Source of the DNA: a virus
IMG/VR virus record: IMGVR_UViG_3300037198_000018
Span: 1-43,747 of that record
Direction: 5' to 3' (one strand)
DNA: 43,747 bases
Shown here piece after piece: positions 4,524-42,323 of this stretch. The position numbers and the translations under genes were made by a program. The stretch's first letter is position 1; every line of letters begins with the position of its first letter. Below the pieces are notes generated by a model. It saw only the letters and a program-made list of their open reading frames with translations. It did not search any database and was not told where the DNA came from.

Positions 4524-4694
4524 ATGAAAGCATTCTTACTTAATACCCCTAAGGACGATTGGGTGGAGAGATTCGATGGGAAATGCGACGTTTGCCAAAA
4601 GCCAAAAGCCATCCAGGAGGTGACTCCCGGTGTTTGGTTTGGTTGGCGGGTAGGGTATATCTGTGAAAACTGTAAAAAAGAAAAGGCTCACTGA
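4524..4694 (+). CDS. 56-residue zinc-ribbon protein
   Basis: A short plus-strand gene 3 bp after the TOPRIM gene, ending in a TGA that overlaps the stop of the opposite-strand giant gene by 7 bp. The product has two CxxC knuckles, CDVC (21-24) and CENC (47-50), separated by a Trp/Gly-rich loop (GVWFGWRVGY), and a Lys-rich tail. This is a classic four-Cys zinc ribbon. It is the last gene of the early cluster. Similar miniature zinc ribbons in phages bind nucleic acid or polymerases; the target here is unknown. Confidence 0.7.
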   Translation: MKAFLLNTPKDDWVERFDGKCDVCQKPKAIQEVTPGVWFGWRVGYICENCKKEKAH

Positions 4695-10600: not shown

Positions 10601-12499
10601 GACAACAGACTCCAAGGCGTTTAGGGATTCCAGCTTCCATCGTTGCTTGCCGACGGCGTTGATAACTTCCTCCGTGCGCCAACCGGATAACTTCTCGATG
10701 CGCTGACGAAGCAGCTCATGGCCCCAAAGCGTGTCTGACATCTCATTGAGGGTGCTCCCCATGCTGTAAATTGATTTACCAATCCGCACCTCAAGTCCAC
10801 TCAGGGATTTGAGATAGGTAATCGCGTCTTCGTCGGTGGCGGCCAGGTGGATGCGCTCATGTCCCAAGATGGAACGAATGGCCTGCGCCCGCCTGTCTGG
10901 ACTCATGGCACCAAGGAACCTCGCCATTCTCTTTTGGTTGACCAAAATGGTTCCGGTTTTACGGTCTATTGTCGCAATTCCTATCGCCTTTTTGGAAGAA
11001 AATGGCTGGTTGGGGTCTGTTTCGTCCACCGACCTAACTGGGACATCCATCTTGGCGGCTGCTTCGTTGATGATGGACTGGTATTCATCCTCCAAATCGG
11101 ACTTGGCTGGCTCGGCAGCGGATTCGGGGGCGAGGTTTTTGACCATCCCATACCTGTCCCGCTCCTTTGAGACCAGCTTAACGGCGTCATCCCAGCTCAG
11201 GTGGTATTTGTCTGCAATGGCCTGAATCTTGTCGTGTCCACCGGGTTCAGCTTCCTCTCTTGTGAGCAGAATGTCCTTCGGCTTTGCGGCGGCCTCATCC
11301 CGGTCATGCAGCTTGTTGGCCTCATTGACGGCGATGCTCTGAGTGGGATGGTCGCTCTCAATTCCACCAGCCGGATTGACCACCACCCAGCGGTTCATCC
11401 CGTCGTCGAACTGAACGTCGTAGTTCTTGGCCCTCAGAGGAACTTCCGCTTTTCCTTCCACTGGTGCTGCTGGCGTTTGTGCTCCGGCAGTTTCCCCCGG
11501 TTGTCGAAGTGGTGTTTTTTCACCCACTTGTGGCCGAACTTCTGGTTGAGCAGCGCCCGCTGCGCCTGGCTTACCGCTGGCATTTTGTGCTCCTTTCTTG
11601 AATCCTTCCCGCCAAGGGAACAGCACGTTGGCCATTGCAAGCCCGGCTGCTGACTTTGCGGTCTGGGAGTCTGGTTTCTGTCCTTCAACGGACTTCTGGC
11701 TCAAATCCAATGCCGCGCCAAGAACGCCGCCCTCGGTTGCGGCCCCGATTCGTCCACCCACCCATGCCTTGAACCCAGTGGTTCCCATCTTGGCGGCCAG
11801 ATATTTTCCAAGCGGCTTTCGCATCGCTGCGGGGATGGCATAGAACACCAAGGCCGTAAGCAGCCCCTTATCCACTGAGCGGCTCAGGGCTTGGTCGGCG
11901 GCCTCATCGTCGGGCATTTGTGGATTGGACTGCTTGATGTTGGTGTATTCATCGGGGATTTCGCCCAGCGGCTCAGCGGCATAGGCGGGGATGGCCAGCG
12001 GCCCCAGAGCCATCTTCGCGCCGGAGCCAGCCATCTCGCCGGCCTTTGTCCAGTTGCTCTTTTCCTGCAACGGAGTCATTGGCACTGACTCGGCGGCAGT
12101 TTGACCAATCTTGTAAAGTGGGTTGGTCTTGGTGGCGGCAACCACCTCAAGCGGAGTTCTGGGGACAACCTCGAAAGCGTTCGGAATGGCCGCCGGTGGG
12201 GAGGCGGTGTGGGTCTGACCTCCAGACTGTATGGACATCGGGCCGCTTCGGTCTCCCTGCTCACCATTCCAGAGGGGGACATTGGTGCGCTGAACCTTCG
12301 GTGTGAGGTATTCCTGAACGGCTGCCGCCGCCTTGGGAATCAGCCCTGCGCCCTGCTCAAGCGAGGACAATGCTCCTCGAAACGGGGCTGCTTGGGGCTG
12401 GCCATATTCCTTGTCGAGCGCGGCCTTAATCTGCTCGTCTGCCATCCCGTCAGGGAATTCAACGAGACCCACGCCTTCAACTTGAATCTTGGTAGGCAT
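4688..12499 (-). CDS. Giant 2603-residue virion/ejection-type protein
   Basis: The largest gene of the window, about 18% of it. The N-terminal 30 residues (IQVEGVGLVEFPDGMADEQI at 5-24) form a short domain often seen at the start of phage ejection or structural proteins. Residues about 205-300 are hydrophobic/glycine-rich and may contact membranes. GHERIH (546-551) contains HExxH, a zinc-metalloprotease motif. Long Ala/Pro/Glu-rich linkers alternate with folded blocks, and the last 800 residues are dense and globular. This layout fits large polyvalent ejection proteins delivered with DNA into the cell. It follows two smaller putative ejection proteins in the same operon, as in podoviruses. 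No lysozyme, transglycosylase or N4-type RNA polymerase motif was recognised. Which domains are enzymatic is unknown. Confidence 0.75.
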   Translation of the reverse strand: MPTKIQVEGVGLVEFPDGMADEQIKAALDKEYGQPQAAPFRGALSSLEQGAGLIPKAAAAVQEYLTPKVQRTNVPLWNGEQGDRSGPMSIQSGGQTHTASPPAAIPNAFEVVPRTPLEVVAATKTNPLYKIGQTAAESVPMTPLQEKSNWTKAGEMAGSGAKMALGPLAIPAYAAEPLGEIPDEYTNIKQSNPQMPDDEAADQALSRSVDKGLLTALVFYAIPAAMRKPLGKYLAAKMGTTGFKAWVGGRIGAATEGGVLGAALDLSQKSVEGQKPDSQTAKSAAGLAMANVLFPWREGFKKGAQNASGKPGAAGAAQPEVRPQVGEKTPLRQPGETAGAQTPAAPVEGKAEVPLRAKNYDVQFDDGMNRWVVVNPAGGIESDHPTQSIAVNEANKLHDRDEAAAKPKDILLTREEAEPGGHDKIQAIADKYHLSWDDAVKLVSKERDRYGMVKNLAPESAAEPAKSDLEDEYQSIINEAAAKMDVPVRSVDETDPNQPFSSKKAIGIATIDRKTGTILVNQKRMARFLGAMSPDRRAQAIRSILGHERIHLAATDEDAITYLKSLSGLEVRIGKSIYSMGSTLNEMSDTLWGHELLRQRIEKLSGWRTEEVINAVGKQRWKLESLNALESVVRNIRTRLGTNISPEIRAILDRVQSNITLGKAVASGVSPMAQPGEDETGEQKLNKRQKKNRKADALVNMNTRESISARAKIDEHEALFGKMIGDSGKAADTYGTKIGTRQDFLTRFYKDAGNRAFNEIGEDKDTEEWFVNKFSKDHGVGEGEAREWLSKYRELRDNYHRAVLREWVKSLDETLEFQKKKLQDEPDDAHLQNFIRENQEMRDRFSRELDSGSDQQSFPARPERSKKEDPNQGVFDTIRSAAKFSQMRLAAAGDQEVMAGAEKQKFKDAMGSLAPKEPGPTPRAPNPKAEKMADDVGGLKYIGEWNVKGKPYWMFNITQEGRETTMVVPDTATVDDLAKKKADKIKEYDEAAGQEQFPMSAERGRPSNRKESVNQDKMDFAGASVNTVEEAQKPVPEGERLSAEKAGALPPLSAADLENRADKWMKEQVAATMDKAVKAPTAGGSVALPTFKEFVESMKKQQGGVQPGQLKEMWQGAVDRTLSAASDDQLRAMIQAGFGRESKLARFSRAALSYTKDTPPLELEGEIGVKTSREESAEAAAGRLKRAKDAERPAMFERKASERQEAKEERNAPRRRRMIVSALFKRMVLPAYREDALPQDRKTVTPSEIRYGGGKEISAYQSFDATSQNDPELGKMLVDDARRSGEDPVTTTKRLTVIMDKKSGKVAMVSTYNHPTKGTMLVDPVHPQGHHAPLDDVLKRYRVLYSVLLDQPVKGFKRTFDSVADYNDRFGKEAQGNYSRETSYDPRNVPISEFTEGVEGTEGLEGEGGDVMGPGKKAAMAVTGVGEGASERGSHTPITDVEASAVNNHVVDTLGEEPANPDEVVDVIFDIQDRIGNYQKAAEQYSKLSEELDKIKENPEEGWSEKEKKDAKRIGSQLSKLRIQMDGAKVNPSAISGISKIAQLLQRENPDLTTEELVNKLAQTIYEDKNLEATVARTEKSAAAKAGETARPEVQAKPSETGRDLNMLNRRPPTDVRPENVPPGTMPEFTHNPPVPEATTTPRNPDYLSPEDAEWVNALSLMPEFHADAKDAVRQAAAYKPTEFVPTVEYPEPAKEGERTLTDRPKQPQLKEQSPMSAERLSNELDKKRRQINAVWLRRSSKMEITAAADGADNLAPVAGEHARRTLRLVNKDEMVRSTPIALLACGKVGENPNTGKKFFFYDQKALDSKITQAKLGAIKAQGVMDDPKTSFKEWRLAKQMKAAAERLELIAQYTKDHFKDQDVKDMAMACRRELYDQLVREHEHGVSTTDFGETYFPTRYEGEMFNLDTIRFGSDETIGNRFTARKVFRDHYEAIMHGPFIPKSYDAADIISHRVRQGARAIGRRMWVEALKDMKDAVSGKPIAMDATPGHPRQLVNPDTGEKEFHGDPWQAPSPEYEMIKPTDSGTPIAVLKPYAGLMKTCTAESAFRGSPAGELSVYFSSMLKHGVVLVGDTFHYSRLMQYGTAMRRGVPSFNNGFAALMYRAEDLAGPNGEPGPAVKSGEVYPESAKWALAKEAVIDDAGTHKLMSHQEVLQEMVGRGLNATRIGDAIYKDAVQKIPLVGEVLYKAVGPWNRFLFDRFMPGLISDGAVRNFVKLHQANPDVPYSKLMRDVITDMNVYYGNMGRQGVFTNPTLRDAAQVTMLAPMWQEGLIGKELRTMGRLTGISNLTGRRGVPQLGALGGAVTRGLASYFLLTQAINLVTRRQLTFQNKEKGHELDAWIPTGEKTGIWISPMSVFAEKTHDLIRLCEAKPKAWDAITQMGENALGPVGKFAHVLRSSRSPSGEYLTTTPSVISTAVEQLTPTPISLGKGIQWAGYAAGVSPKPEPGTTWRQMIASGMGIKTQPGQDANTQAEASARKFAQDNMLKSDSQVIIPTDEPSYAKLRHAFKIGDEGSTKKIFDTLVSKRKTGQSAYARREQIVKDMQNWARRPFTGSNNGDRLWIHSMTDAEREMYSNAVQQRYELLYGWEKWYLTQVGNPGQ

Positions 12500-19221: not shown

Positions 19222-20046
19222 TTAAAGGGTGATGTTGTAGTTGGTTGAAAGCATGTGCTCGGTGTTGGTGACGGACAACAGGGACGCGTTCGTGCTGATG
19301 ATGAATCGGGCGATGTCACAATAAGACAGAAAAGAAGGCTCGATGCCAAGGCCGTTGAACCCCACATCAGTTCCGTTAGCACTGCTCCCGATGTCGGCTC
19401 CGTTCAATCTTATATTATTGGACGCTGAAAACCAGGAGACAGTTATCAGATTGAACCTGTTCGTCGGGAAAAGGGCGGTCGTGATATTGTAGTCGCCCGT
19501 CGCACCAGTAAAAAGGTTTGCGGGGTTGTGCTCCCCAAATAGACCTGGAGCACTAGTGGAGTTGGGGCTGTAATAAAATATCTGCCCCAATGACCAATCC
19601 CCTGACGCCACAGCCACCACCATATAAACAACCAGCGGGCAGGAGTGAACAAGGTTGGTATTGACTAAACTGTCCCCAGTGCCGCCGCTTAGTCCTCCCC
19701 CATAGGGGCTAGAAGCGTATCTCACAATAGAGTGCCCGTTGAGAATATTTGTCTCCAAGGCGGGTCGAACCGCTTGTGTGAAATTATATCCATTCCCGCT
19801 TTGGTCGTTCCATTGGCCTATCAAAGAGCCATTATTGGTGGCTGGAGTGATTCCTGAATCGGAGAAAACTCCTAAGTCGGCATTCAGGTCGAGAAGGTAG
19901 GGCGATGGATTGGTGACGACTGAGGCCGCGCCCCCCGACTGCTGGGCAAGAAACGCAATGTCGCCAAAAGTAAATGGCTGCCCAGAGCCAGGCGTAGCCG
20001 GGATAGCCAGAAAGCAAAACAGGACGAAGTGGAAAAGTCTGCTCAT
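19222..20046 (-). CDS. Secreted LamG-like fibre or surface protein
   Basis: A 274-residue protein from ATG 20046, which overlaps the stop of the collagen-like gene (ATGA). The start MSRLFHFVLFCFLAIPAT looks like a Sec signal peptide, with cleavage probably before residue 24. The body (about 50-270) has the pattern of a concanavalin/LamG-like sandwich: GSLIGQWNDQSGNGYNF, IVRYASS, then strands ending FNLITVSWFSASNNIRLNG. Such domains bind sugars or surface proteins. A host-binding role fits its place among fibres. An export signal on a phage structural protein is unusual, because virions assemble in the cytoplasm; it could instead be a secreted accessory protein. Confidence 0.75.
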   Translation of the reverse strand: MSRLFHFVLFCFLAIPATPGSGQPFTFGDIAFLAQQSGGAASVVTNPSPYLLDLNADLGVFSDSGITPATNNGSLIGQWNDQSGNGYNFTQAVRPALETNILNGHSIVRYASSPYGGGLSGGTGDSLVNTNLVHSCPLVVYMVVAVASGDWSLGQIFYYSPNSTSAPGLFGEHNPANLFTGATGDYNITTALFPTNRFNLITVSWFSASNNIRLNGADIGSSANGTDVGFNGLGIEPSFLSYCDIARFIISTNASLLSVTNTEHMLSTNYNITL

Positions 20047-20603
20047 TGCTGCTGCGCGGTGCAGATGTTTGTCCACGACCCGGTCAGGCAATCCACACTG
20101 ATGTAGGCCATCTTGCCTGGCAGAATGGATAAGCTGTTGGTGCTGATTGGGCCGTAAAATCTTGCCGCCGCCGTTATTGAAAAGTTGTTTGTGGCTGGCC
20201 CGGCGTTTGAAACTATAAGAGTTGACCAAGTGAAAGGCGATGGCGCAATGATGTTTGTCAAAGTTCCACTGCTGGAGATTTGGTTTATCCACCGGCCATT
20301 GTTCAGGGTCAATGTGCTGTCTGAGTACGTTGAGGTCGTAACCAGGTTTGTTCCACTAGGCCCGGCAGCTCCGGTCGCCCCAGTAGCCCCAGTAGCCCCG
20401 GCTGCCCCTGGCGACCCTGGCGCTCCGGGCGCTCCATTGGTGCCATTGATGCCGGGCAATCCGTTGGTTCCGGGCGGGCCTTGCGGCCCCGAAAACTGGT
20501 GGGTCTGCCAGAAGTTGTAAAGGTCTTGGAAGCTTACATAGGCCGCCCTTGCCGGGAGCAGCATGACCACAAACAGAACGATGAGGATGATTATTCTTTT
20601 CAT
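20043..20603 (-). CDS. Secreted collagen-like fibre protein
   Basis: A 186-residue protein. Residues 1-20 form a signal peptide (MKRIIILIVLFVVMLLPARA, with an ARA cleavage site). After a short helix-like segment come 16 uninterrupted Gly-x-y triplets (residues 39-86), including tandem GAP and GAT units, which should fold as a collagen triple helix. The remaining 100 residues are beta-rich (SDSTLTLNNGRWINQI onward) and may be the trimeric tip. Collagen repeats are common in phage fibres, the signal peptide is not. The gene is coupled to both neighbours by 4-bp overlaps. Confidence 0.85.
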   Translation of the reverse strand: MKRIIILIVLFVVMLLPARAAYVSFQDLYNFWQTHQFSGPQGPPGTNGLPGINGTNGAPGAPGSPGAAGATGATGATGAAGPSGTNLVTTSTYSDSTLTLNNGRWINQISSSGTLTNIIAPSPFTWSTLIVSNAGPATNNFSITAAARFYGPISTNSLSILPGKMAYISVDCLTGSWTNICTAQQQ

Positions 20604-20803
20604 TTCCAGGATTGGGATGATGGGTTCCAGACATAGCCCGCGCCAGCGCCGTTATCCTCGAATATCACCGCCCTCATTGAGGGGTAGGGAGGTACGATTC
20701 CCTGCGAGGCCGGGTCTCCCAGCGTGACATCGTAATACATGATGGGGTTCGCTGGCTGCGACTGCACCCCCGGCGGGCAGCATTCGTCGTAAAGCTGGCT
20801 CAT
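20600..20803 (-). CDS. Small fibre-associated hypothetical protein
   Basis: A 67-residue protein starting at ATG 20803 (MSQLYDECCPPG); the longer form from 20821 is less likely. It is the first gene of the leftward tail operon and overlaps the collagen-like gene by 4 bp. The C-terminus AGYVWNPSSQSWK resembles the short W-x-x-x-x-x-x-W endings of carbohydrate-binding or fibre-tip modules, similar to the ending of the gene at 27302-27559. It may be an adhesion accessory. No family was recognised. Confidence 0.6.
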   Translation of the reverse strand: MSQLYDECCPPGVQSQPANPIMYYDVTLGDPASQGIVPPYPSMRAVIFEDNGAGAGYVWNPSSQSWK

Positions 20804-20865
20804 GCGACAACGGTAGCCCAAACAATCAGGTTTTCAACTTAAATCAGATGTGGTAGGGTTGGGCT
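20804..20865. promoter_or_regulatory. Divergent intergenic region between tail operon and terminase
   Basis: A 62-bp gap separates the leftward tail operon from the rightward terminase gene, so promoters for one or both should lie here or in the adjacent coding ends. On the minus strand TTGAAA followed after 16 bases by TACCGT is a weak sigma70-like candidate. No convincing plus-strand promoter was seen, and the GTG start of terminase has only a poor GGG-type ribosome-binding site. Confidence 0.3.
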
Positions 20866-22689
20866 GTGGCAGGAAAAATACGATACGGTCTTCAGTTCAG
20901 CCAGGGCGCATCCGACGTGGACGTTGAAATCGAGATGATTAAGCGCGGCGGCCAGTGGACTGGAAAGCAGGGTCAGGCCATTGGCAACGGCATGTTCTGG
21001 CACTTCAAACAGCTTGAGACCCTGCTCTACGGCGAGGCCAAGATTTGGCACGAATGGAACGAGCTGCAACTGAAGGAGTACCTGACCCACCGCACCATCG
21101 GCATCCTTGGCCCATCCAGCAGCGGCAAGACTAACGGGGCCGCCACCGACGTTCTGGCTGACTGGTATTGCTTTCCGGCCTGCACCACCGTCCTGATTTG
21201 CTCCACCACGACCGAGCGACTTCAAGACCGCATCTTCGGGGAAATCAAGAAGTACCACCGGCTGGCAAAGAGCCGATGGCCAAACCTTCCGGGGCACCTA
21301 ATCGAGGGCCGACTCCGCATTGTGAACGACTCCCGGATGGAGGTCACGGACGGACGCGACTTCCGAAACGGCATCATCGGCGTCCCCTTCAAACGCGGAG
21401 GAAACTTTCAAGGACTGGAGGACTTCATCGGCATCAAGAACAAGCGCATGAGGATGATTGCCGACGAGCTGCAAATGCTACCGGCATCGTTTATGATGGC
21501 CATTTCCAACCTCGACAAGAACCCGGATTTGAAGGTGGTGGGGCTGGGGAACCCCAAGGAGACCACGGACGCGCTGGGCTGCTTCTGTGAGCCTGCATTC
21601 AAGCTGGGTGGCTGGGATGGCGGCATTGACCAGATTCCCAAGACCAAGACGTGGGAGACCCGCAGGCCCGACGGCATCTGCATCCAGTTCGTCGGCACGG
21701 ACTCCCCCAATCTGGACGGACATCTGGGCATCCCCCTCATCACCCAGGAGGCGATTGACCGGGACATCGCCCAATACGGCAGGGACTCGCTCCAGTTCAC
21801 CATGATGAACATGGGCATGATGCCGCGCGGACAAGGGAGCCGACGGGTCATCACCCGCCAGCTCTGCCTCAAGAACCACGCGATGGACGAACCCAACTGG
21901 CTGAACTCCAACCAGACCAGCGCGGCCTTTCTGGATGCGGCCTATGGCGGAGTGGGCGGCGACCGCTGCATCTTTGGTGTGCTGAAGTTCGGGCAGGAGG
22001 CCGAGCCGATTGACCCCTCAGACCTGCTTTACAACATCGTCAACCAGAAGACCGCCAGCAACCGGCACCGCCAAATCGTGGCCCTGAACGAAATCACCCT
22101 CGTCCCCATCAACGTCCAGATTGACGTGGAAGTGACCGACCAGATTGTGAACTACGTCCAGTCCCAGTGCGTCACCCGGAACATCCCGCCCCAGAACTTC
22201 TTCTTCGACTCCGGCATGAGGACGGCGCTGGTCAGCAGCTTTGCCCGGCTCTGGTCTCCCCAGACCAACCCGATTGATTGCGGCGGCACACCCACCGACC
22301 GGCTGGTGTCAGCCCAGATTCAGATTCCGGCCAACAAGTATTACCGCAAGCTGATAACTGAGCTTTGGTTCCGGGTGCGGCTGGCCATTGAAGCCGGTCA
22401 GTTCAGGGGAATGAGGGACGCGGTGATGACCGAGGGCTGCGCGCGCGAATGGAAGATGGTCGGGAACAACCTGATTGAGGTTGAAACCAAGCAGGAGATG
22501 AAGCTGAAAATCGGGCGCTCTCCCGACATGTTTGACGCGCTGTGCATCGGGCTTGAGGGGGCCGCCCGGCTGGGGTTCGTCGTGGACAACGCCCTTTCCG
22601 CAAAGCACGTCGAGAAGGACAGTGCTTGGAAGAAAATCCTCAGGGAGAAGTCGGCGGTCGCGTGGAAGGAAGGCTGCCTCGAAGACTGA
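20866..22689 (+). CDS. terL: Terminase large subunit
   Basis: A 607-residue packaging motor that pumps DNA into the prohead and cuts it. The ATPase has Walker A GPSSSGKT (82-89) and Walker B MRMIADE with D200 and E201. The nuclease has the RNase H-like acids D357 (AAFLDAAYGG), D448 (NFFFDSG) and D554/D557 in GRSPDMFDAL. The motifs are in the expected order and the length is normal. The GTG at 20866 is the best start, since an internal Met at 25 would shorten the N-terminus. It is the only plus-strand gene between two long minus-strand operons; no small terminase subunit was recognised nearby. Confidence 0.94.
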   Translation: MAGKIRYGLQFSQGASDVDVEIEMIKRGGQWTGKQGQAIGNGMFWHFKQLETLLYGEAKIWHEWNELQLKEYLTHRTIGILGPSSSGKTNGAATDVLADWYCFPACTTVLICSTTTERLQDRIFGEIKKYHRLAKSRWPNLPGHLIEGRLRIVNDSRMEVTDGRDFRNGIIGVPFKRGGNFQGLEDFIGIKNKRMRMIADELQMLPASFMMAISNLDKNPDLKVVGLGNPKETTDALGCFCEPAFKLGGWDGGIDQIPKTKTWETRRPDGICIQFVGTDSPNLDGHLGIPLITQEAIDRDIAQYGRDSLQFTMMNMGMMPRGQGSRRVITRQLCLKNHAMDEPNWLNSNQTSAAFLDAAYGGVGGDRCIFGVLKFGQEAEPIDPSDLLYNIVNQKTASNRHRQIVALNEITLVPINVQIDVEVTDQIVNYVQSQCVTRNIPPQNFFFDSGMRTALVSSFARLWSPQTNPIDCGGTPTDRLVSAQIQIPANKYYRKLITELWFRVRLAIEAGQFRGMRDAVMTEGCAREWKMVGNNLIEVETKQEMKLKIGRSPDMFDALCIGLEGAARLGFVVDNALSAKHVEKDSAWKKILREKSAVAWKEGCLED

Positions 22690-33790: not shown

Positions 33791-35083
33791 TTACTCTTTG
33801 GAAACCACCGTCTCAGGGCCGGGAATCTTGCCTTCTGTGAAGCTCATGCCCAATTCCTCAGCCGTCTGGATTTCCTTGAGCAGGTCGGCGATGGATGAGA
33901 ACTGGACGTTGCAGCCGTCGGGCATGGCGTCCTTGTTCTCGCGCAGGTGCTCGATGGCTTCTTCCATCGTGTCGCCCACGCCCACGACCCAGCCGATTTC
34001 CTCAACGCCGGTCTGGTCAGGGGGAACACATATCTTGCCGTCCACCTTGCAAGAGAAGGCTATCTTAACCCATTGGTCGAGTTCGTCCTGGATTTCAAAC
34101 ACGCCCCACTCGTCCCGGTCAACCTTGAAGATGGCCTGCGCTCCGAACTTGAAGGACTGTTCCGGCTCAATCACCTCGCCATTGGCACCTTTCCAGATGA
34201 CCTCTCCGAGGTTTCCAATCATCTCGCACATGCACTGGCTGGGCGGGCTGGGGAAGCGGCAGGTCGGGTCAATGAAATAGGTCTCGCCGTCCTTGGTAAT
34301 GCGGCCCTCAGTGGAGAACGCGCCGCGATAGCCGTACTTCTTCAGGATGGGGCCGAACTCCTCGTTGATGACGCGGATTTCCTCAGGGCAATCGGCCAGC
34401 TTCTGGAACGCGCCGATGTAGGCGGAGTCCTTGCACTCCATCCCGTGGATGATGGTTTCGGGCCACTGGCCGTCAATGCACCACGAATCAATCCCGTCCT
34501 CGATTTCCGTGTCAATCGGCTCGAACACGAAGAAGTTCATGTATTCCCGGAGCGGCCCCAGCGTGACGGCCCATTTGTCCAGCACGGATTCGTCGGCGGC
34601 CATGCTTCGGAAATGAGTGGTCTCAAAATCGCCCCGATAGGTGGAGACCTTGATGTACTGGTCTTCCTTGTCCTTCAGGAACAGCTTCAGACTGGTGATG
34701 CCCATTACCTTCTTGAACTTAGGAACAGGCAGGTTGGTGGTGCCGAGGACTTCCAGAAACTTCCCGCGCCGAGCCTCCAGCTCATCCCCCCGGCGGCAGC
34801 CCCAGACGGCCTTGCCCTGCTTCACCAGCTCCTCTTGCAGGTCGGAATAGCCGATGTCGGGGAACACGAACAGGTCGCATTCGGCCTTCACCTCCTCGAT
34901 GGATTCGCAGGCGATGATGTCGGGGTAGCCGTCACCAATGACTGAGTCCTTGAGTCTTGGAAATGCGGATTCCCACGGAGTCCAATACCAGACGGTGTCA
35001 AATTCCCTTGCCAGTCTGCGGGCAATATGAGGGAAAATTCCCGTGTCCACGCACAGCGCTTTGACATCCTTGGCGTCCTTCAT
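33791..35083 (-). CDS. ATP-grasp ligase-like protein
   Basis: A 430-residue protein of the ATP-grasp superfamily, whose members join a carboxylate to an amine, thiol or imine through an acyl-phosphate. The N-terminal 90 residues form a Rossmann-like domain (LCVDTGIFPHIARRLA). The ATP-grasp part includes PVPKFKKVMG (119-128), YIKVSTYRGD (143-152) with K145 as a candidate ATP-binding lysine, and YRGAFSTEGRITKDG (252-266), followed by TYFIDPTCRFPSPP (268-281), the metal-binding region equivalent to ENxRxGDP in phosphoribosylamine-glycine ligase. The last 70 residues are helical. It most resembles GARS-type enzymes, but the changed motif argues against purine synthesis. The substrate is unknown. 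It lies between portal and scaffold and overlaps the HELVE gene by 4 bp. Confidence 0.8.
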   Translation of the reverse strand: MKDAKDVKALCVDTGIFPHIARRLAREFDTVWYWTPWESAFPRLKDSVIGDGYPDIIACESIEEVKAECDLFVFPDIGYSDLQEELVKQGKAVWGCRRGDELEARRGKFLEVLGTTNLPVPKFKKVMGITSLKLFLKDKEDQYIKVSTYRGDFETTHFRSMAADESVLDKWAVTLGPLREYMNFFVFEPIDTEIEDGIDSWCIDGQWPETIIHGMECKDSAYIGAFQKLADCPEEIRVINEEFGPILKKYGYRGAFSTEGRITKDGETYFIDPTCRFPSPPSQCMCEMIGNLGEVIWKGANGEVIEPEQSFKFGAQAIFKVDRDEWGVFEIQDELDQWVKIAFSCKVDGKICVPPDQTGVEEIGWVVGVGDTMEEAIEHLRENKDAMPDGCNVQFSSIADLLKEIQTAEELGMSFTEGKIPGPETVVSKE

Positions 35084-35466
35084 AGGCTGTTGATTTCAGT
35101 CTCATACACCGACCACTTCACGCCCATGAACGCGGCCACGATTCTCTCCACTCCGGTTGCAAGACAATGCTGGACATGGTAGGGGGCGTCAGGCTCGTCG
35201 CCCGGCTCGCGGGTATCAAGGGTCAGTGATTTTTCGCGCTGCTTCTCGAAGGCGATGTCGAAGGCGTCCACAGACTCCTGTGTCACCCCGGCTACCTTGC
35301 ACAGTAGCACTTCTACCAGTTCATGGACGGCCACCAGCATCTCATAGCGCCAGTCGGACATCTTGCTGACCAGAATTTCCAGCGAGCCGTCGGGAAGGAA
35401 GACCCAGTCGCCGACGGTTTCGTAGCGTTGCATCTTGTGCGGAATGACCTTGATGCTTACGTTCAT
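35080..35466 (-). CDS. HELVE-motif zincin-like protein
   Basis: A 128-residue protein with HELVE (48-52) inside VAVHELVEVLLCKVAG, an HExxE version of a zinc-metalloprotease motif, followed by a conserved-looking acidic helix (VDAFDIAFEKQRE). A Gly/Asp/Pro segment, PGDEPDAPYHVQHCLATG, adds further His residues, and a helix ends the protein. I recognise this overall pattern from small phage proteins of unknown function. The last Glu could replace a His ligand, so proteolysis is uncertain. The gene overlaps the portal and ATP-grasp genes by 4 bp on both sides. Confidence 0.7.
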   Translation of the reverse strand: MNVSIKVIPHKMQRYETVGDWVFLPDGSLEILVSKMSDWRYEMLVAVHELVEVLLCKVAGVTQESVDAFDIAFEKQREKSLTLDTREPGDEPDAPYHVQHCLATGVERIVAAFMGVKWSVYETEINSL

Positions 35467-37769
35467 TCACCCTCTCCCTCACTCATTGATTTCAGGTTGG
35501 TTCTCCCGGCCTCATGCAGCGCCTCGACGTTCTTGCGGTGCTGCTCGGCGTCGAAATCGCGCTGCTTGCGCTGTTCCTCCATCTCGAAGGCCACCTGCCG
35601 CTGGGCGGTCTTCTGCGTGTGGCTGTCCTGAGAAATCTTCGCCTTGGACTGGGCGGTGATGACCTGCGCCTGCATCTTGGCCTTGGTCTGCGGGTCAACT
35701 CCGTCGCCCTGCGATTGCTGCTGCTTCTTCATCTGCTCTTGCAAGCGCTGGATGAACGCCTTGACCAGGTTCATCAGCTTGGCGAGCTGCTTCTCGGCCT
35801 GTGCCACGAACTGTTTCTCATCCTTGTCCTGAGCCAGCACCTTCAGATGCTGCTCGATGCACTGGGCCACCATCTGGAAGCCCTTGATTTTGTCGGGCGG
35901 GGCCATGCCGCCGGACTGCTCGGTCTGCTGGATGATTTGGCCCAGCTCGGTCAGCAGCACCATGATGAACTCCTTGTGGTTCTGGCCGGTCTTGACGGCG
36001 ACGGGGAAGCCCATCATCAGCGTGCCCATACTCAACTGGGCGTCGTGGACGGTGTCTGAAATCTTGAGCGGCTGCTCCGGCACCAGGCGCAGAGCGCGGG
36101 CCGGGTCGTCGGTGATGGCCAGCGTAACGTCCCGCAGAATATCCCGCTGAGGCTCCGGGTCGTACAGGTTTCGCATCTGCATCAACTGTTCGGAGATGGC
36201 CATTTCCAGGGTCTTGTTACCGGCCCCCATGATGCGGGTCGGCTCGATGTCCCAGCATTCCGCATTGAGCACGGATTCGGGAACCCCCTGACGCAGCACG
36301 GCGGCGCGGAAGGAAAGCACGTCCCTGTCCTGGGATTTCTTGTTGCAGAACCGGCGGAAGATTTCCCGGTATTCCGGCTCCTGATAATGGTACGCCTGGC
36401 CCAGCGCGGCGGACACCAGCGCGGTGGACTGGTTCATCTCGGCCATGACCTGGAACTTGGTCTTGCGGTCGCCGGGCTGGTTCTGGCCCTGCTGGGCCGT
36501 CCAGGAGCTTGAGTTCTTGTCTATGATGCGCTGGTTCTCCACCATGCCCAGCTCGATGAGATTGGCATTGACCTGCCAGCGCTCGTCGGGCTTCACGAAA
36601 TGGATGGTCTCGTCTATGAACCCCTGGTTGACCATGTCCAGCTTGAGCGCCCGCTCCACGTCGTCCATTGACTTGACCCGGTAATAGTTCATCAGCGCCT
36701 CGAACACGGCGGCGTTGAAGCGGCAGCGCATCCGGTTCTGGAGATGGCATACGGCATAGAGCAGGAAGCCCAGCGACCGGACGCTGTGATAGCGGAAGGG
36801 GGCCACGCTTGACAGGTCGGCAAACTGGAAGGAGACGAGTTCTGAAAGCTGGTCGGCATACTTGCGGTTGCCGGAGTTGAACAAGAACTGGTTGCGGTCA
36901 ACACCCTCCTTGTCGTTCCGCTCCATCCTGGTGCTCTCGCCTCGCCCGGTGCCGGACTGGGGGGCCGACCACGAATCCAGTATGATGCGCCGGTTCCAGC
37001 CCTCATGCTTGTCATCGTCGTTCCAGAAATAGAAATCGAAGCAGTCAATCGTCGGCACCTGGTCGGAGGCGTAGAACACGCCATCGCCCTTGGTGCGCTC
37101 GACGGTCTTCTCCGGCGACCAGACTTCGGGCCAGTTGGTTCCCATCAGGGCAATCGTTTCCCGGTCAACCCACTCGACGCACTGGTCAACCAGCGCAAGA
37201 TTCCACCCAGCCTTCTTCGCCACGTCCCGGTTGCGGGTCAGCTTGATGAGTTCGGGAACGGTGTAGGAGCGGTAGATGTAGAAGAAGGGGAGGTTCTCCA
37301 TCGTCAGGAGCGTGTTGGCGGGGATGCCAACGTCCTCGACCCCGACGGCGTTGGGCAGCCAGCAGTCCTTGTTGCGCCACGCGGCAGGCCCGATTCCGTG
37401 CAGCACGTCCATCGCAAACTTGCTGCGGAAGGTCTCGTAATAAACCATCGAGCGGCCCATGATTCGGTTCATCTCCTTGGTCACGACGGCAGACCAGATG
37501 GAGCGCTTGTGCGTCGGGCCGCTGTCCACGCTGGCGCTGAAATACTTTCCGGGCTTCAGGAAGGCCGAGTTGAACTGGGCGCGGGCGTCATGGGCGATGA
37601 CTGTGCCTCCCAGGAAATTCACGTTGATGGGGTTCTCCTCGTCATTCTCGAAGGGCTTGACCCCGTTGAACAGGTTGTTGATTCTCGCCCGGTTCTTGCC
37701 GCGCGTGTAGTCGGCAAGTTTCATGTCATAGCAGACCGATTCGACCTGTTCCGCAGTTTTGAAATTCAT
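35463..37769 (-). CDS. Portal protein
   Basis: A 768-residue portal: a twelve-fold ring at the head vertex through which DNA enters and leaves. The central part, with alternating helices and strands (DCFDFYFWNDDDKHEGWNRR, near 240-260) and a long helical stretch, fits the portal crown, wing and stem. After about residue 600 there is a long Gln/Lys/Glu-rich coiled coil (AKLMNLVKAFIQRLQEQMKK and onward), typical of podovirus-type portals with a barrel extension. It is the largest protein of the head operon and follows the glycosyltransferase cassette with a 4-bp overlap. Family-level homology was inferred from size, context and composition. Confidence 0.8.
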   Translation of the reverse strand: MNFKTAEQVESVCYDMKLADYTRGKNRARINNLFNGVKPFENDEENPINVNFLGGTVIAHDARAQFNSAFLKPGKYFSASVDSGPTHKRSIWSAVVTKEMNRIMGRSMVYYETFRSKFAMDVLHGIGPAAWRNKDCWLPNAVGVEDVGIPANTLLTMENLPFFYIYRSYTVPELIKLTRNRDVAKKAGWNLALVDQCVEWVDRETIALMGTNWPEVWSPEKTVERTKGDGVFYASDQVPTIDCFDFYFWNDDDKHEGWNRRIILDSWSAPQSGTGRGESTRMERNDKEGVDRNQFLFNSGNRKYADQLSELVSFQFADLSSVAPFRYHSVRSLGFLLYAVCHLQNRMRCRFNAAVFEALMNYYRVKSMDDVERALKLDMVNQGFIDETIHFVKPDERWQVNANLIELGMVENQRIIDKNSSSWTAQQGQNQPGDRKTKFQVMAEMNQSTALVSAALGQAYHYQEPEYREIFRRFCNKKSQDRDVLSFRAAVLRQGVPESVLNAECWDIEPTRIMGAGNKTLEMAISEQLMQMRNLYDPEPQRDILRDVTLAITDDPARALRLVPEQPLKISDTVHDAQLSMGTLMMGFPVAVKTGQNHKEFIMVLLTELGQIIQQTEQSGGMAPPDKIKGFQMVAQCIEQHLKVLAQDKDEKQFVAQAEKQLAKLMNLVKAFIQRLQEQMKKQQQSQGDGVDPQTKAKMQAQVITAQSKAKISQDSHTQKTAQRQVAFEMEEQRKQRDFDAEQHRKNVEALHEAGRTNLKSMSEGEGE

Positions 37770-38515
37770 GGTATCACTCGTTCCAATCTTGAAAGTATCA
37801 TGTTGCGTTTGTCGAGGGCGTGCTTGATGCCCGGCTCGAAGTTGCCCCAGCCGTGCTGGACATTGGCTTCACACATTCTGGAGCGGGTTCGGTCATACTT
37901 TTTGGCAATCCTTTCAATAGGCCCGATTTGATGATAATGCAATAGGTAAAACGGAGGCTCGGTCGGAATTCCCGGACTGCCGAATGTGCTTCCGTCCTTC
38001 AGTGTGGCAATCGAGGTGTGCGCTCCGGGGGCGAATTCCATCGCCGCCACCAGCAGGGGCGAGAACACACAGGGCTTGCCGTACCAGTGGTCGTCGCGCG
38101 CGCCGTCCTTGATTTCATCGTATATCTGGCCCTCGCCGGAAGGCTCAACGGACGAGAACATTTCGTAGCCTTGGGGACGAACCAGTGGAAGCCCGGCCAT
38201 GACGTACCAGGAGAGGGTGGAAACGGCACCTTCCGGGAAATAAATGAACTCGTCGGCGTCCACCACCATGACCCAGTCGGCCTTGGTTCCCAGCCAGCAT
38301 TCGTTCTTGATTCGCATGTTGACCCGGTCATCCACCTTGTCCTTGGTGTCCCAGTGCCGGACTTTGACGCCGTGGTGAAAGGCGATTTCCAAGCTGTTGT
38401 CGGTGCTGCCCATGTCGTGCAGCGTGATTTCGGATGCGAACGTGAGGTAATGGCGGAAGGCGTAGGGCAGGATTTCCGCCTCGTCGCGTCCCAGGATGTG
38501 AACGTCAATGTTCAT
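37766..38515 (-). CDS. Glycosyltransferase family 2-like protein
   Basis: A 249-residue GT-A glycosyltransferase. The start DVHILGRDEAEILPYAFRH (4-22) is the typical nucleotide-sugar binding strand with an acidic loop; ITLHDMGSTDNSLEIA (30-45) matches the second conserved segment D-x-x-S-x-D; and VVDADEFI (84-91) is the DxD motif that binds the metal and the sugar diphosphate. The C-terminal half contains acceptor-side helices. It would transfer a sugar from a nucleotide-sugar donor. It is the last gene of a four-gene cassette and overlaps the portal gene by 4 bp. The acceptor is unknown. Confidence 0.85.
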   Translation of the reverse strand: MNIDVHILGRDEAEILPYAFRHYLTFASEITLHDMGSTDNSLEIAFHHGVKVRHWDTKDKVDDRVNMRIKNECWLGTKADWVMVVDADEFIYFPEGAVSTLSWYVMAGLPLVRPQGYEMFSSVEPSGEGQIYDEIKDGARDDHWYGKPCVFSPLLVAAMEFAPGAHTSIATLKDGSTFGSPGIPTEPPFYLLHYHQIGPIERIAKKYDRTRSRMCEANVQHGWGNFEPGIKHALDKRNMILSRLERVIP

Positions 38516-39189
38516 GCGGCGGGCTTTTTAAGCACGACCTTGTTGATGACGATTCGCTTCGTCAGGCCCTTCGCCAAACAGAACTTGTCCACGTCCCGAA
38601 TCAGTCCGACGAACATCTTTTCGTGGGGGTCGTAATCATCCACCAGCATGGTTCCGCCCGGCTCCAGAAATTCCCAGTACATCTCAAGGTCGCGCAGGCA
38701 GTCGCCCTCCTCATGGCAGCCGTCAATGTAGATGAGCTGGGCCTTTTGAATGCCAAGTTCCCGGATGTACCTTCCCGCCGAAATGCTGGGCATGGGCAGC
38801 GGGACAATGACATCCTCCAGCTTCCTGCCCAGGACGTTGGAGAGGAACGTGTAGTAGAAGCAGGGGCGGCCAAACTGGATTTTCAGCTTCACCCGATGCT
38901 CCGGCATTGACCACAGAATCTGCTCGGCCAGCCAGGTGTCCACGCAGAGAATGGCCGAGCCGGTCAGCCCCAGACGCTTTATGGCCCCACCCATGGTGAT
39001 GGCTGAGCCGCCCAGAAAAGAGCCGACCTCGATGATGAGCCTGGGTTTTATCTCCGCCACCAGCTCGTCGAAGATGGGCTGGCCGGGGCCGAAGGCGAAA
39101 TAGTCCGGCGGCCAGTACGCGCTGGGATAGTCGGCGTAGGGGTTGATGCCCAGGTGGATTTTTTGGATGAGTTCTTCGTAGGCGGTCAT
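38512..39189 (-). CDS. Class I SAM-dependent methyltransferase
   Basis: A 225-residue methyltransferase with the Rossmann pattern: motif I IIEVGSFLGGSAITM (52-66), motif II with the acidic ILCVDTWLAE (80-89), motif IV LIYIDGCHEEGD (152-163) and post-motif GGTMLVDDYDPH (178-189). It resembles the Methyltransf_24 group, often found beside glycosyltransferases, in which the enzyme methylates a sugar hydroxyl. Overlaps of 4 bp on both sides place it firmly within the cassette, so methylation of the added sugar is likely. It could also act on a nucleotide or protein. Confidence 0.85.
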   Translation of the reverse strand: MTAYEELIQKIHLGINPYADYPSAYWPPDYFAFGPGQPIFDELVAEIKPRLIIEVGSFLGGSAITMGGAIKRLGLTGSAILCVDTWLAEQILWSMPEHRVKLKIQFGRPCFYYTFLSNVLGRKLEDVIVPLPMPSISAGRYIRELGIQKAQLIYIDGCHEEGDCLRDLEMYWEFLEPGGTMLVDDYDPHEKMFVGLIRDVDKFCLAKGLTKRIVINKVVLKKPAA

Positions 39190-39872
39190 AAATGGTAAAA
39201 GGGGGCGTATAGCTCCGCATCACCGTGGATGAGGGAGCGCAGTTTGTCCAGCGAATGGTCGGCGTGGGCGTTGGGTTCGTCGGGGCCGTGGCCGTTGCCA
39301 TAGCCCTGTCTTCCGGGCATTCCCTTGATGCCGACCACCAGCTTGTCAGTTCCCTGGTCATAGACCTTGCGGGGCCGCTCATGCAGCCAGATTCGGGCGT
39401 CAATGAAAGGGCCGGGGTCTTTGGCCTCCCATTCCAGGGCGCACAGGGCCGTTTGCCGGATGGCGGTGGAGCAGAGGGAGGCGTGGGCCATGTTGTAGTG
39501 GGCATACCACTGACGCCATCCGACGTTGTAATAGATTGCGTTTCCCTCGCCGATTATCTCATGCGACTCCAGGGCGCGCGCACAGAACTCCAGCCAGCGC
39601 GGAGAGTACCAGTCATCATCTTCCCAGAAGACAATGCCGCCGTCCTTGACCAGCCCAGAAGATGCCAGATGAGTCAGTTTTTTGGTAAGGCTGCCATCGG
39701 AAGCGTATGGCAGTATCAGGTGGGTCTGACCCATCAGGCATCGCACCGGGGTGTGGCCGTCGTCCAGCACAATCCATTGCGAGGGTTGCACGGTCTGTCT
39801 CGACATCCACAACTGGCAGAGCAGAAAAGCTTCGGGCCGGTCTCCGGTGCAGGTGACGGCGGTGAGGTTCAT
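39186..39872 (-). CDS. Second glycosyltransferase, GT-A type
   Basis: A 228-residue protein with GT-A features: a short N-terminal strand (MNLTAVTCTGDRPEAF), SQWIVLDDGHTP (31-42), and FWEDDDWYSPRWLEF (82-96), where EDDD serves as the metal-binding acidic motif, as in GT2 enzymes with W-E-D-D-D. The remaining residues form the acceptor side with several Trp and His. It is coupled by 4-bp overlaps to the fusion glycosyltransferase before it and the methyltransferase after it. The donor and acceptor sugars are unknown. Confidence 0.82.
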   Translation of the reverse strand: MNLTAVTCTGDRPEAFLLCQLWMSRQTVQPSQWIVLDDGHTPVRCLMGQTHLILPYASDGSLTKKLTHLASSGLVKDGGIVFWEDDDWYSPRWLEFCARALESHEIIGEGNAIYYNVGWRQWYAHYNMAHASLCSTAIRQTALCALEWEAKDPGPFIDARIWLHERPRKVYDQGTDKLVVGIKGMPGRQGYGNGHGPDEPNAHADHSLDKLRSLIHGDAELYAPFYHL

Positions 39873-41248
39873 TGGAAGAACTCCTCCGGGATGGACAGTT
39901 CCGGGTCAACGGTTCCCAATCCCCAGTAAATCACGTTCTTGCGCGGCAGGAAACAGTTGGGGTTCCCCTGCCAGCATTCCTGGATGATGTTCTTGCCCAG
40001 GCCCAGGGCAATGGCCATCGGGCAGGACTGGTTCCCGATGAACACCCTGGCCCCGGCAATGATTCGGGCGGCCACCAGCAGGTTGGAAGTCTTGAGCCAG
40101 GGCACCTTTTTGCCCACGCCATAGGCGAGCTGGTCGAACAGGCCGTACTCTTTGTCCGAGCCGATGAAGGCCATCTGGTCGCCGTACTTTTTGATGAGAT
40201 GCAGCCAGGGGAAGTGGTAGTTGCGATACCGGGAGGTCAGATTGACGACGATGGGGCGGTCAACCACGGGACTGGCCACCGTCAGCCAGGGCCTGTCCGT
40301 GGGCCACTGAACACCAAAGGCATCCAGGTGCTGCTGGAAGATGGACTTGACCGGAGTCTGGAGCGGCTGGCTCCACTCAATGCGGAACCGATTCAGGTCG
40401 TAGTCAGTGGAGAAGGGGGTTGAATGGGTGAAGGACGCCCGCCAGATGCAATCCTGGGATTCCAGCAGCGGGGCCAGATTGTTGACCCAGTCCGGGTTGA
40501 CGGTGGAGCGCGAGCGCCGGGGGAACGGGAACTTGTTGTCGTCGGACAGGAACAGGACGCCTCCGCCCAGCGCCCGAATCACCGGGATGGAATAGATGAC
40601 ATCGCCTGAATCACCGGTGTGATGGAAGATTCTTGGACGGTCAATTCTGAACCCAGTTTGGGACATTTCCGGGAGCGGCGTCAGCCACGAATGGAACCCG
40701 AATGAGCCGTTCCAGCGCAGCGGAACACTGGCCCATTCACCGCTGCCGTTCCAGGAGCGGCCCTCGAAGGCGAACTTCAGGGCGGTGGCCAGTTCAGGGA
40801 ACTTGAATCCGGCGTCCTCAAGGGACTTTCGATGGCGCAGGCAGATGTAATTGTCCTCCGGGTGGGGGTTGTCACCAAAGGGATTGGCGGCCAGATATTT
40901 CAGGAGCTTGCGGCTGCGGAGGCTGAATCCCCCGTTGCCAACCAGCCCGGACGGGAGCCACGGAGCGCCGATGTAATCGTACTGGAGGAACCCGTCGCAC
41001 CAGGCGTCCCCGTTCAGGACGTAGCCGTCGGACTGAATCAGCAGACAGTGGGTGGTTTGGACGTGCTGGTGAAGCTCCAGGATGCAGAAATTGCTGTACT
41101 CCTCAAGGCCGGACAGGGGCGGCGACAGGAACTTGACCGAGCCAAAATCGCACTGTTCCATTGACTTCTCCAACGCCCGGTAAGCCAGATGTTTTTTGGG
41201 TGTGGAGTCAATGATGACAAGGGTTACGTCCCTGAGGTTGGGCTTCAC
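39869..41248 (-). CDS. Fusion glycosyltransferase: DUF5672-like plus GT9-like domains
   Basis: A 459-residue protein with two glycosyltransferase domains. The first, about residues 1-190, resembles DUF5672: LVIIDSTPKKHLAYRALEKS, LLIQSDGYVLN (69-79), then VGNGGFSLRS (103-112) and PEDNYIC (130-136). The second begins HHTGDSGDVIYSIPVIRALG (209-228), the nucleotide-sugar region of heptosyltransferase-like GT-B enzymes, and ends with ARVFIGNQSCPMAIALGLGK (400-419). The start is taken as GTG 41248, which overlaps the preceding stop (GTGA), matching the other cassette junctions; a TTG at 41266 in the same frame is possible. It may add two sugars in sequence. Confidence 0.82.
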   Translation of the reverse strand: MKPNLRDVTLVIIDSTPKKHLAYRALEKSMEQCDFGSVKFLSPPLSGLEEYSNFCILELHQHVQTTHCLLIQSDGYVLNGDAWCDGFLQYDYIGAPWLPSGLVGNGGFSLRSRKLLKYLAANPFGDNPHPEDNYICLRHRKSLEDAGFKFPELATALKFAFEGRSWNGSGEWASVPLRWNGSFGFHSWLTPLPEMSQTGFRIDRPRIFHHTGDSGDVIYSIPVIRALGGGVLFLSDDNKFPFPRRSRSTVNPDWVNNLAPLLESQDCIWRASFTHSTPFSTDYDLNRFRIEWSQPLQTPVKSIFQQHLDAFGVQWPTDRPWLTVASPVVDRPIVVNLTSRYRNYHFPWLHLIKKYGDQMAFIGSDKEYGLFDQLAYGVGKKVPWLKTSNLLVAARIIAGARVFIGNQSCPMAIALGLGKNIIQECWQGNPNCFLPRKNVIYWGLGTVDPELSIPEEFFQ

Positions 41249-41925
41249 TTGTCGAGTATCCAGCAATGGGCTGGCAGGTCGTTTTTAACCTCCTGGGATA
41301 GGTGCTTTTTGATGAGCGGCAGCGGTGCCCACACCTTGAGCTTGAGCGGGCACATGCACGCCATGCAGACGCCCAGCTTTTCATCGCTGGGAGTGGTGAG
41401 TTTGAGGGAGTGCAGGCGACCGATGCGGCCACGGATGAGTTCGGCGGCGGGGACGGTGAACCAAGAGGTCAGGTCGCCCTTGCCGTTTTGGGGACAGGTC
41501 TCGCAGATGACGGAGCGGCGGACGGCCTCGGCGGATTCGACGGGCGGCTCACCGGTTTTTTCCCATTCCAGCAGCAGGGCGGCACCGGCGTTAACCCTTT
41601 TTACGGCCCCCGCAACAGACGCCATCCTTGTCTGGGACGCGGGGGCCATCGGTTTTGGGGGCGGCGGGGAGGGGTCGCCGGTGATGTAGGCCGTCCATCC
41701 GTTCTGCTGGCATATCATCGTGTTGAACTGGTCAACGAGGGCCGCCACAGATTCCCGGTCGGTCGGGTAGGTTTGCTGAAGCGCGGGGTTGGAATTGATG
41801 ATGGCCGTCGCCTGGTTGACGATGGTGTCGAAGGAGGCGAAGGGAGCCGACCTCCACTTGACCTCCGGGATTTGGAATTTCATGCCGTGAGGCACCTGCA
41901 TCTGCCGGTTCTTTAGTGCTGCCAT
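41245..41925 (-). CDS. Cys-rich protein at the head of the late operon
   Basis: A 226-residue protein. The N-terminal 70 residues are folded and helical; a Pro-rich linker (PSPPPPKPMAP) follows. The C-terminal half holds a cysteine cluster: CETC (141-144), CMACMC (187-192) followed by PLKLKVWAPL, and CW at 221. The spacing suggests a zinc or iron-sulfur site. Such C-x-x-C-x-C-PLK-K endings occur in other phage proteins near glycosyltransferase genes, from memory, without an assigned function. It is the first gene of the long minus-strand operon, coupled by GTGA to the fusion glycosyltransferase. Confidence 0.72.
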   Translation of the reverse strand: MAALKNRQMQVPHGMKFQIPEVKWRSAPFASFDTIVNQATAIINSNPALQQTYPTDRESVAALVDQFNTMICQQNGWTAYITGDPSPPPPKPMAPASQTRMASVAGAVKRVNAGAALLLEWEKTGEPPVESAEAVRRSVICETCPQNGKGDLTSWFTVPAAELIRGRIGRLHSLKLTTPSDEKLGVCMACMCPLKLKVWAPLPLIKKHLSQEVKNDLPAHCWILDK

Positions 41926-41948: not shown

Positions 41949-42323
41949 ATGAGCCGTCAACAGTTTTCGTTTGCAGAATTGCAACCAGTGTGGGAAGATG
42001 GGCCTGTGAAGTTCTACAAACTGCTGCCCGACCGGAACCCATTGCGGGTTGAATTCCGCAAGACAAAAACGTCCCCAATTGGGGACAAATGCAAGCGCTG
42101 CCGGGGCACCGGAATCGAGCCAAATCAGGCCGCCATTGGCGCGGAACTGAAGAAGCTGCGGCTGGCCGCCCACATCAGCCTTCGCCGGATGGCCCAGCGC
42201 CTGCACATCAGCCACGGGTTCCTGCATCAGCTTGAAGCCGGTCGCCGACGCTGGAATCCCGTGCTGGAGGAATGGTTCATCAGGGAGACAGAGAAGCGTA
42301 CCCCCAAAGGCCATCCCGTTTAA
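41949..42323 (+). CDS. XRE-type transcriptional regulator with CxxC knuckle
   Basis: A 124-residue DNA-binding protein. Residues 1-45 are mixed, then CKRCRGTG (48-55) makes a single zinc-knuckle-like CxxCxGxG, and about residues 63-105 form a helix-turn-helix: IGAELKKLRLAAHISLRRMA, then HISHGFLHQLEAGRR, as in the Cro/CI-like XRE family. The gene diverges from the late operon start at 41925 with only 23 bp between them, so it could control that operon or itself. Its 3' end overlaps the end of the small minus-strand gene by 44 bp. Confidence 0.85.
   Translation: MSRQQFSFAELQPVWEDGPVKFYKLLPDRNPLRVEFRKTKTSPIGDKCKRCRGTGIEPNQAAIGAELKKLRLAAHISLRRMAQRLHISHGFLHQLEAGRRRWNPVLEEWFIRETEKRTPKGHPV

Follow-up and report, generated by a model that had tools for sequence, protein, structure and literature searches.

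The window analyzed here is the whole of the IMG/VR virus record IMGVR_UViG_3300037198_000018, 43,747 bases in length. Four consecutive minus-strand genes, gtA, gtB, mtC and gtD, occupy positions 37766-41248 between a conserved cysteine-rich gene (up1) and the portal gene, an interval referred to below as the slot (Table 1). Judged from comparison with related contigs, this cassette is an exchangeable island of sugar-modification genes that keeps a fixed position, between up1 and the portal gene, in a podovirus lineage. The lineage looks uncultivated, since no record of the phage collection matched the portal gene or the capsid gene. Conservation of the position together with change in the content is the main finding. 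The initial annotation had placed genes of sugar-modification type next to the portal gene, and this was borne out: the families of three of the four genes are supported by Pfam, the genes lie at the apparent head of the late operon, and the portal was confirmed.

Table 1. Features of the slot and of its neighborhood in the window
Feature	Coordinates	Strand	Description
Regulator ORF	41949..42323	+	Open reading frame (ORF) of a helix-turn-helix (HTH), XRE-like regulator, divergent from up1; weak PHROG transcriptional regulator matches
up1	41245..41925	-	Conserved Cys-rich protein; fixed upstream border of the slot
gtA	39869..41248	-	DUF5672 domain; C-terminal half weakly resembles heptosyltransferases (GT9)
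gtB	39186..39872	-	GT-A-like by EDDDW (DDD) motif
mtC	38512..39189	-	Predicted class-I S-adenosylmethionine (SAM) O-methyltransferase, sugar or antibiotic O-methyltransferase type
gtD	37766..38515	-	Family-2-type glycosyltransferase (Glyco_tranf_2_4), 249 residues
Portal	35463..37769	-	Podovirus type, by AlphaFold and structure matches; fixed downstream border of the slot
Gene directly after portal	35080..35466	-	Part of the run of 4-bp overlaps
Candidate major capsid protein	33791..35083	-	430 aa; conserved; two genes after the portal

Searches with the portal yielded 27 distinct relatives (41-67% portal identity), not counting the window's own virus. Record L002 (G001; 57,215 bases) was identical to the window across the 18,282 bases compared and is therefore the same virus. 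Contigs of the lineage reach about 58 kb, and searches of whole records covered 30 records including the window virus (29 related records). A homologue of up1 was present upstream of the portal gene in 23 of the 27 distinct relatives, at a distance of 1.3-7.8 kb. Glycosyltransferase, methyltransferase or radical SAM genes with Pfam support were found ahead of the portal gene in 25 of the 27, mostly belonging to other families than those of the window. A relative with the same portal and no cassette was sought among the 27 and not found. For L047 and L048, Pfam supported no assignment of a sugar or methyl gene; the proteins seen there look related but lack a family match. In L005 the supported sugar and methyl genes lie directly before up1, and the slot proper holds two families without assignment; in L027, unlike the other relatives, the methyltransferase genes upstream of the portal gene are on the opposite strand to it. 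The view that such a cassette is not a standard part of podovirus-like genomes may hold for podoviruses generally but not within this lineage, where it is standard.

The position is also reflected in the distribution of two marker families over whole records. Inside the slot, which makes up 10% of 1.36 Mb, were 24 of the 26 Methyltransf_24 matches and 15 of the 16 Glyco_tranf_2_4 matches, together 39 of the 42 matches to these families. Binomial p values were about 4e-22 and 2e-14, respectively; they ignore kinship among relatives, which are not independent, and are indicative only. In records where no up1 was detected, the 8 kb upstream of the portal gene were counted as the slot, a choice that slightly favours the enrichment. 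Two of the three matches outside the slot sit right before up1 in the record of L005.

Content follows kinship loosely. At 65-67% portal identity, the window virus has most cassette families in common with L012 and some in common with L003, and has no family in common with either L005 or L006. The methyltransferase in the mtC position of L012 is only 26% identical to mtC and reads like one located beside up1 in L005. Sharing of cargo correlated loosely with portal identity (Spearman 0.26). The up1 and portal borders are kept and the genes between them are exchanged, the conserved borders and differing content by which an island is recognized.

A census of the 24 records that have up1, counting the window's own virus, and based on ORFs of at least 150 aa and Pfam matches at E 0.001, gave 110 ORFs in 24 slots. 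The families counted were Methyltransf_24 (13), radical SAM (9), Glyco_tranf_2_4 (8), family 2 glycosyltransferases, GT2 (4), DUF5672 (3) and DUF6492 (3), followed by TylF, CmcI, FkbM, C-methyltransferases, GT9, RmlD, PLOD-type glycosyltransferases and a few unrelated families. Many slot ORFs had no family match, so the true number of glycosyltransferases is uncertain; profiles of A9 and A10, two common slot families without a Pfam match, returned nothing from the PDB. Radical SAM proteins are encoded in the slot at L009:6943-8028, L010:7614-8690 and L042:6744-7835, and the closest NCBIfam families of the L010 protein are tungsten-cofactor oxidoreductase maturases. The glycosyltransferase domain of PLOD type, known from lysyl hydroxylases, was detected at E about 1e-25 in the slots of G012, G023 and G029 (L025, L044 and L052).

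Three of the four cassette genes of the window were assigned to families above the Pfam cut-offs. Residues 51-170 of the gtA product matched DUF5672 (E 4.4e-18, 65.9 bits, cut-off 24.4), a domain found besides only in G001, G010 and G022; translation would start from GTG at 41248, at which the gene overlaps its upstream neighbor by 4 bp, or from TTG at 41266. Residues 400-428 gave a weak match to the NCBIfam heptosyltransferase III TIGR02201 (E 0.012, 14.7 bits, cut-off 170); for the C-terminal half, no GT9 match was obtained in Pfam and hhalign was not significant. The gtB product stayed below the Pfam cut-off for GT2 (E 0.045, 14.1 bits, cut-off 23.3), and its AlphaFold model, built from two sequences, had a predicted local distance difference test (pLDDT) score of 28. 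Among the viral contigs and genomes searched, relatives of gtB were confined to L002, L012 and one weak locus of a Planctomycetota metagenome-assembled genome (26%). The mtC product is predicted from its family to be a sugar-type O-methyltransferase: it matched Methyltransf_24 (E 1.9e-13, 51.7 bits, cut-off 26.3), RMNT_CmcI (E 5.5e-6, 26.7 bits, Pfam cut-off 23.2) and an NCBIfam rhamnosyl O-methyltransferase (E 3e-4), and its family profile matched several solved O-methyltransferases, among them CmcI. The gtD product matched Glyco_tranf_2_4 (E 3.3e-13, 50.4 bits, cut-off 27.5) and carries the DxD motif VVDADEF (DAD at 86-88), of which both Asp residues are invariant across the family alignment. 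Against solved structures, the gtD family profile matched GmaR (E 4e-7), galactan synthase (E 1e-4) and the S-glycosyltransferase SunS (E 0.13). DUF5672, the methyltransferase and the GT2 with DxD, all named in the initial annotation, are thereby retained, and its labels 'GT9-like' and 'GT-A' are weakly supported.

Compared with L012, gtA, gtB and gtD had nonsynonymous to synonymous substitution ratios (dN/dS) of about 0.2, comparable to those of the portal and capsid genes; by this measure they are real reading frames encoding maintained proteins under purifying selection. Comparison of the cassette families with each other by hhalign gave nothing significant at the alignment depths used, and no clear membrane segment was seen in the cassette proteins. 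A recent transfer, as judged by composition, was not supported, the GC content of the cassette being similar to that of its neighbors.

The portal was identified from its predicted structure. When one, ten or 28 members were used to search the PDB, PHROGs and the phage collection by sequence, no usable match emerged. An AlphaFold model built from 28 sequences (pLDDT 67, predicted template modeling score, pTM, 0.53) was matched by Foldseek to the podovirus portals of SU10, N4, T7, Pan3, GP4 and PaP3, and VIA-align gave Z 19.4 over 318 residues for VP1 (root-mean-square deviation 4.2), Z 18 for N4 and Z 17 for T7; on the basis of these model matches, the gene is a podovirus-type portal. By its position, the protein encoded two genes further on is the probable major capsid protein; homologues in the same gene order were found in L002-L012, and searches with it returned no informative family match. 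Elsewhere in the window, a 2603-aa ORF (4688-12499, minus strand) had no PHROG match.

The ORF coordinates confirm that the four cassette genes are joined to one another and to the portal gene by 4-bp overlaps, as initially described, and gtA overlaps the upstream gene in the same way. The run also takes in up1 before the cassette and the two genes after the portal, making seven consecutive junctions, and four more such junctions occur among other minus-strand ORF pairs of the window genome, for which the spacing is therefore normal. By mechanical ORF calls, only 7 of 28 records show a 4-bp overlap between the portal gene and the ORF directly preceding it. These data leave the proposed tie between tight overlaps and virion assembly unsupported as stated; the overlaps were rejected as a distinctive coupling, and the coupling argument is weak. 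A clear GGAGG precedes only gtB among the cassette genes, and translational reinitiation at mtC and gtD is therefore possible.

The cassette probably serves to coat the surface of the virus or of its host, as a kit whose enzymes can be swapped. Its genes would be expressed together, and the products of gtA, gtB and gtD, acting as cytosolic glycosyltransferases, would assemble a short glycan out of activated host sugars, and one sugar of this glycan would be O-methylated by the mtC product. The most likely acceptor would be a surface-exposed virion protein, capsid or fiber, because the cassette sits with the head genes and encodes soluble-type enzymes; a virion protein is given about an even chance and is favored over the host surface. 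Such a glycan would affect binding by host cells or antagonists, and selective pressure to vary it would account for the swapping of enzyme sets between relatives. Virion glycosylation of phages has been demonstrated in few systems, and a fixed slot with swapped sugar enzymes among podovirus-type relatives is a natural experiment on the purpose of the sugars. Comparison of glycans, on virions or on host surfaces, across relatives with different cassettes could reveal their role.

Several points weigh against modification of the virion. The acceptor is so far putative; assignment of the second gtA domain to GT9 is unproven, as is the fold of gtB, which is GT-A-like by motif. A comparable island of pelagimyophages was taken by its authors to modify the O-chain of the host (PMC7029224). 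In some relatives the slot contains genes of unrelated kinds (Acb3, HNH and bL20), and it may in part be a general accessory-gene site. A collagen-like fiber and the PLOD-type glycosyltransferase were not clearly found in the same records. A collagen-like (GXY), tail-fiber-type ORF lies at positions 20043-20603 of the window, with the collagen domain at 20352-20489, and among the 30 records collagen matches above the cut-off were confined to the window virus and the identical contig. The collagen fiber was rejected as a target of the PLOD-type enzyme, which occurs in three other records.

Late in infection the enzymes could instead modify a surface glycan of the host, such as the lipopolysaccharide O-chain or capsule, and thereby keep competing phages from adsorbing or progeny from attaching again to debris. 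Besides the published reading of the pelagimyophage islands, which hold glycosyltransferases and radical SAM genes (PMC7029224), this is consistent with the match of the gtD family to galactan synthase, with methylated sugars and heptosyltransferase-like domains, which are typical of envelope glycans, and with an enzyme set that varies among relatives as receptors do. It is nevertheless rather doubtful: the cassette has no membrane partner, is located with the head operon, and no integrase was found in the window virus, so that nothing points to a long-lived converted host. Serotype conversion of the GtrABC type was rejected, as no GtrA flippase was found in the 30 records and the cassette has no clear membrane segment. 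The lack of GtrA, of thymidylate synthase and, in the window virus, of an integrase makes both serotype conversion and DNA hypermodification less likely. The latter, in which the enzymes would glycosylate a modified base of the phage DNA against host nucleases, has precedents among phage glycosyltransferases (PMC12619734). It is very improbable here and was rejected, since neither the window virus nor any of the 29 related records has a gene of the thymidylate synthase type; moreover, the slot carries sugar-type O-methyltransferases and gtD resembles GmaR, not a DNA glucosyltransferase.

That the sugar genes are ordinary cargo of a general hotspot for accessory genes of mixed function, including counter-defense, is unlikely. 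Unrelated cargo is present: the slot of L048 holds an Acb3-family gene (L048:6491-7285, plus strand) directed against the cyclic-oligonucleotide-based antiphage signaling system (CBASS), and others hold HNH endonucleases and a bL20 gene. The concentration of the two sugar and methyl marker families in the slot and their rarity elsewhere nonetheless go beyond what a general hotspot would lead one to expect. The bL20 gene is located just upstream of the portal gene in L050 (7435-7905, plus strand), where the C-terminal part of the product corresponds to the ribosomal protein (Pfam Ribosomal_L20, E 2.5e-36 for one member of the slot); bL20 was seen in no other fetched locus. An additional Acb3-family gene lies outside the slot in G020 (20744-21508).

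The host-recognition cluster of pelagimyophages and cyanomyophages is likewise a hypervariable island at a fixed place in the structural region, rich in glycosyltransferases and in some cases with radical SAM genes; it belongs to large T4-like myophages, and the islands are about 45 kb and include tail fibers (PMC7029224), whereas the slot of the present lineage is 1.3-7.8 kb, contains no recognized fibers and accompanies podovirus-type portals. Capsid glycans are reported for mycobacteriophages Che8 and Rita (PMC11256854, citing Freeman et al. 2023), where phage-encoded glycosyltransferases are linked to glycans of the major capsid protein (PMC11256854). In Maravista, unlike here, the glycosyltransferase genes are near the 3' end of the genome, and an exchangeable, methyltransferase-containing cassette between two conserved genes is not described there (PMC11256854). 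In chlorovirus PBCV-1, A064R combines two rhamnosyltransferases with a sugar O-methyltransferase (PMC9614988), and together with A061L it represents a comparable set, two glycosyltransferases and sugar O-methyltransferases, that finishes the capsid glycan (PMC9614988). PBCV-1 differs in being a eukaryotic giant virus whose domains are fused in one protein and specific for rhamnose (PMC9614988). Listeria GmaR, a flagellar glycosyltransferase, is the best solved relative of the gtD family. It is a bifunctional anti-repressor and glycosyltransferase of flagella (PMC3150276) with tetratricopeptide repeats and an anti-repressor domain (PMC3150276), both absent from gtD.

Study of the cassette also points to the conserved Cys-rich gene of unknown function beside it. 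The up1 protein consists of an N-terminal LKxRQ domain and a CxxCP...CxxCxCPLKLKV...CW module. No family match was found in Pfam or NCBIfam, and the second Cys module had no significant match in the phage collection. L047 and L048 encode the two halves in separate genes. The proteins of L003, L004 and L006 carry another Cys-rich end, GVGDT...CGCxxRxxxWN, in place of the usual one; from these sequences, up1 is a conserved N-terminal domain with either of two exchangeable Cys-rich ends. It is very unlikely, on present evidence, that the cassette has its acceptor or adaptor in up1, which would carry the glycan onto the virion or bring the enzymes there; the lineage would then possess a dedicated glycan-carrier protein. 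A glycan on up1 would perhaps be S-linked, a thought prompted by the gtD family's very weak resemblance to SunS.

The late operon appears to begin at up1, and the divergent regulator ORF probably marks the start of this minus-strand unit; a similar divergent ORF is present in L003 and L004. Promoter and terminator scans around the slot gave no signal above chance. Before up1, within the divergent ORF, lies a perfect 16-bp palindrome, GTCCCCAATTGGGGAC (42071-42086), a possible operator, which occurs once in the window and elsewhere only in the contig identical to it.

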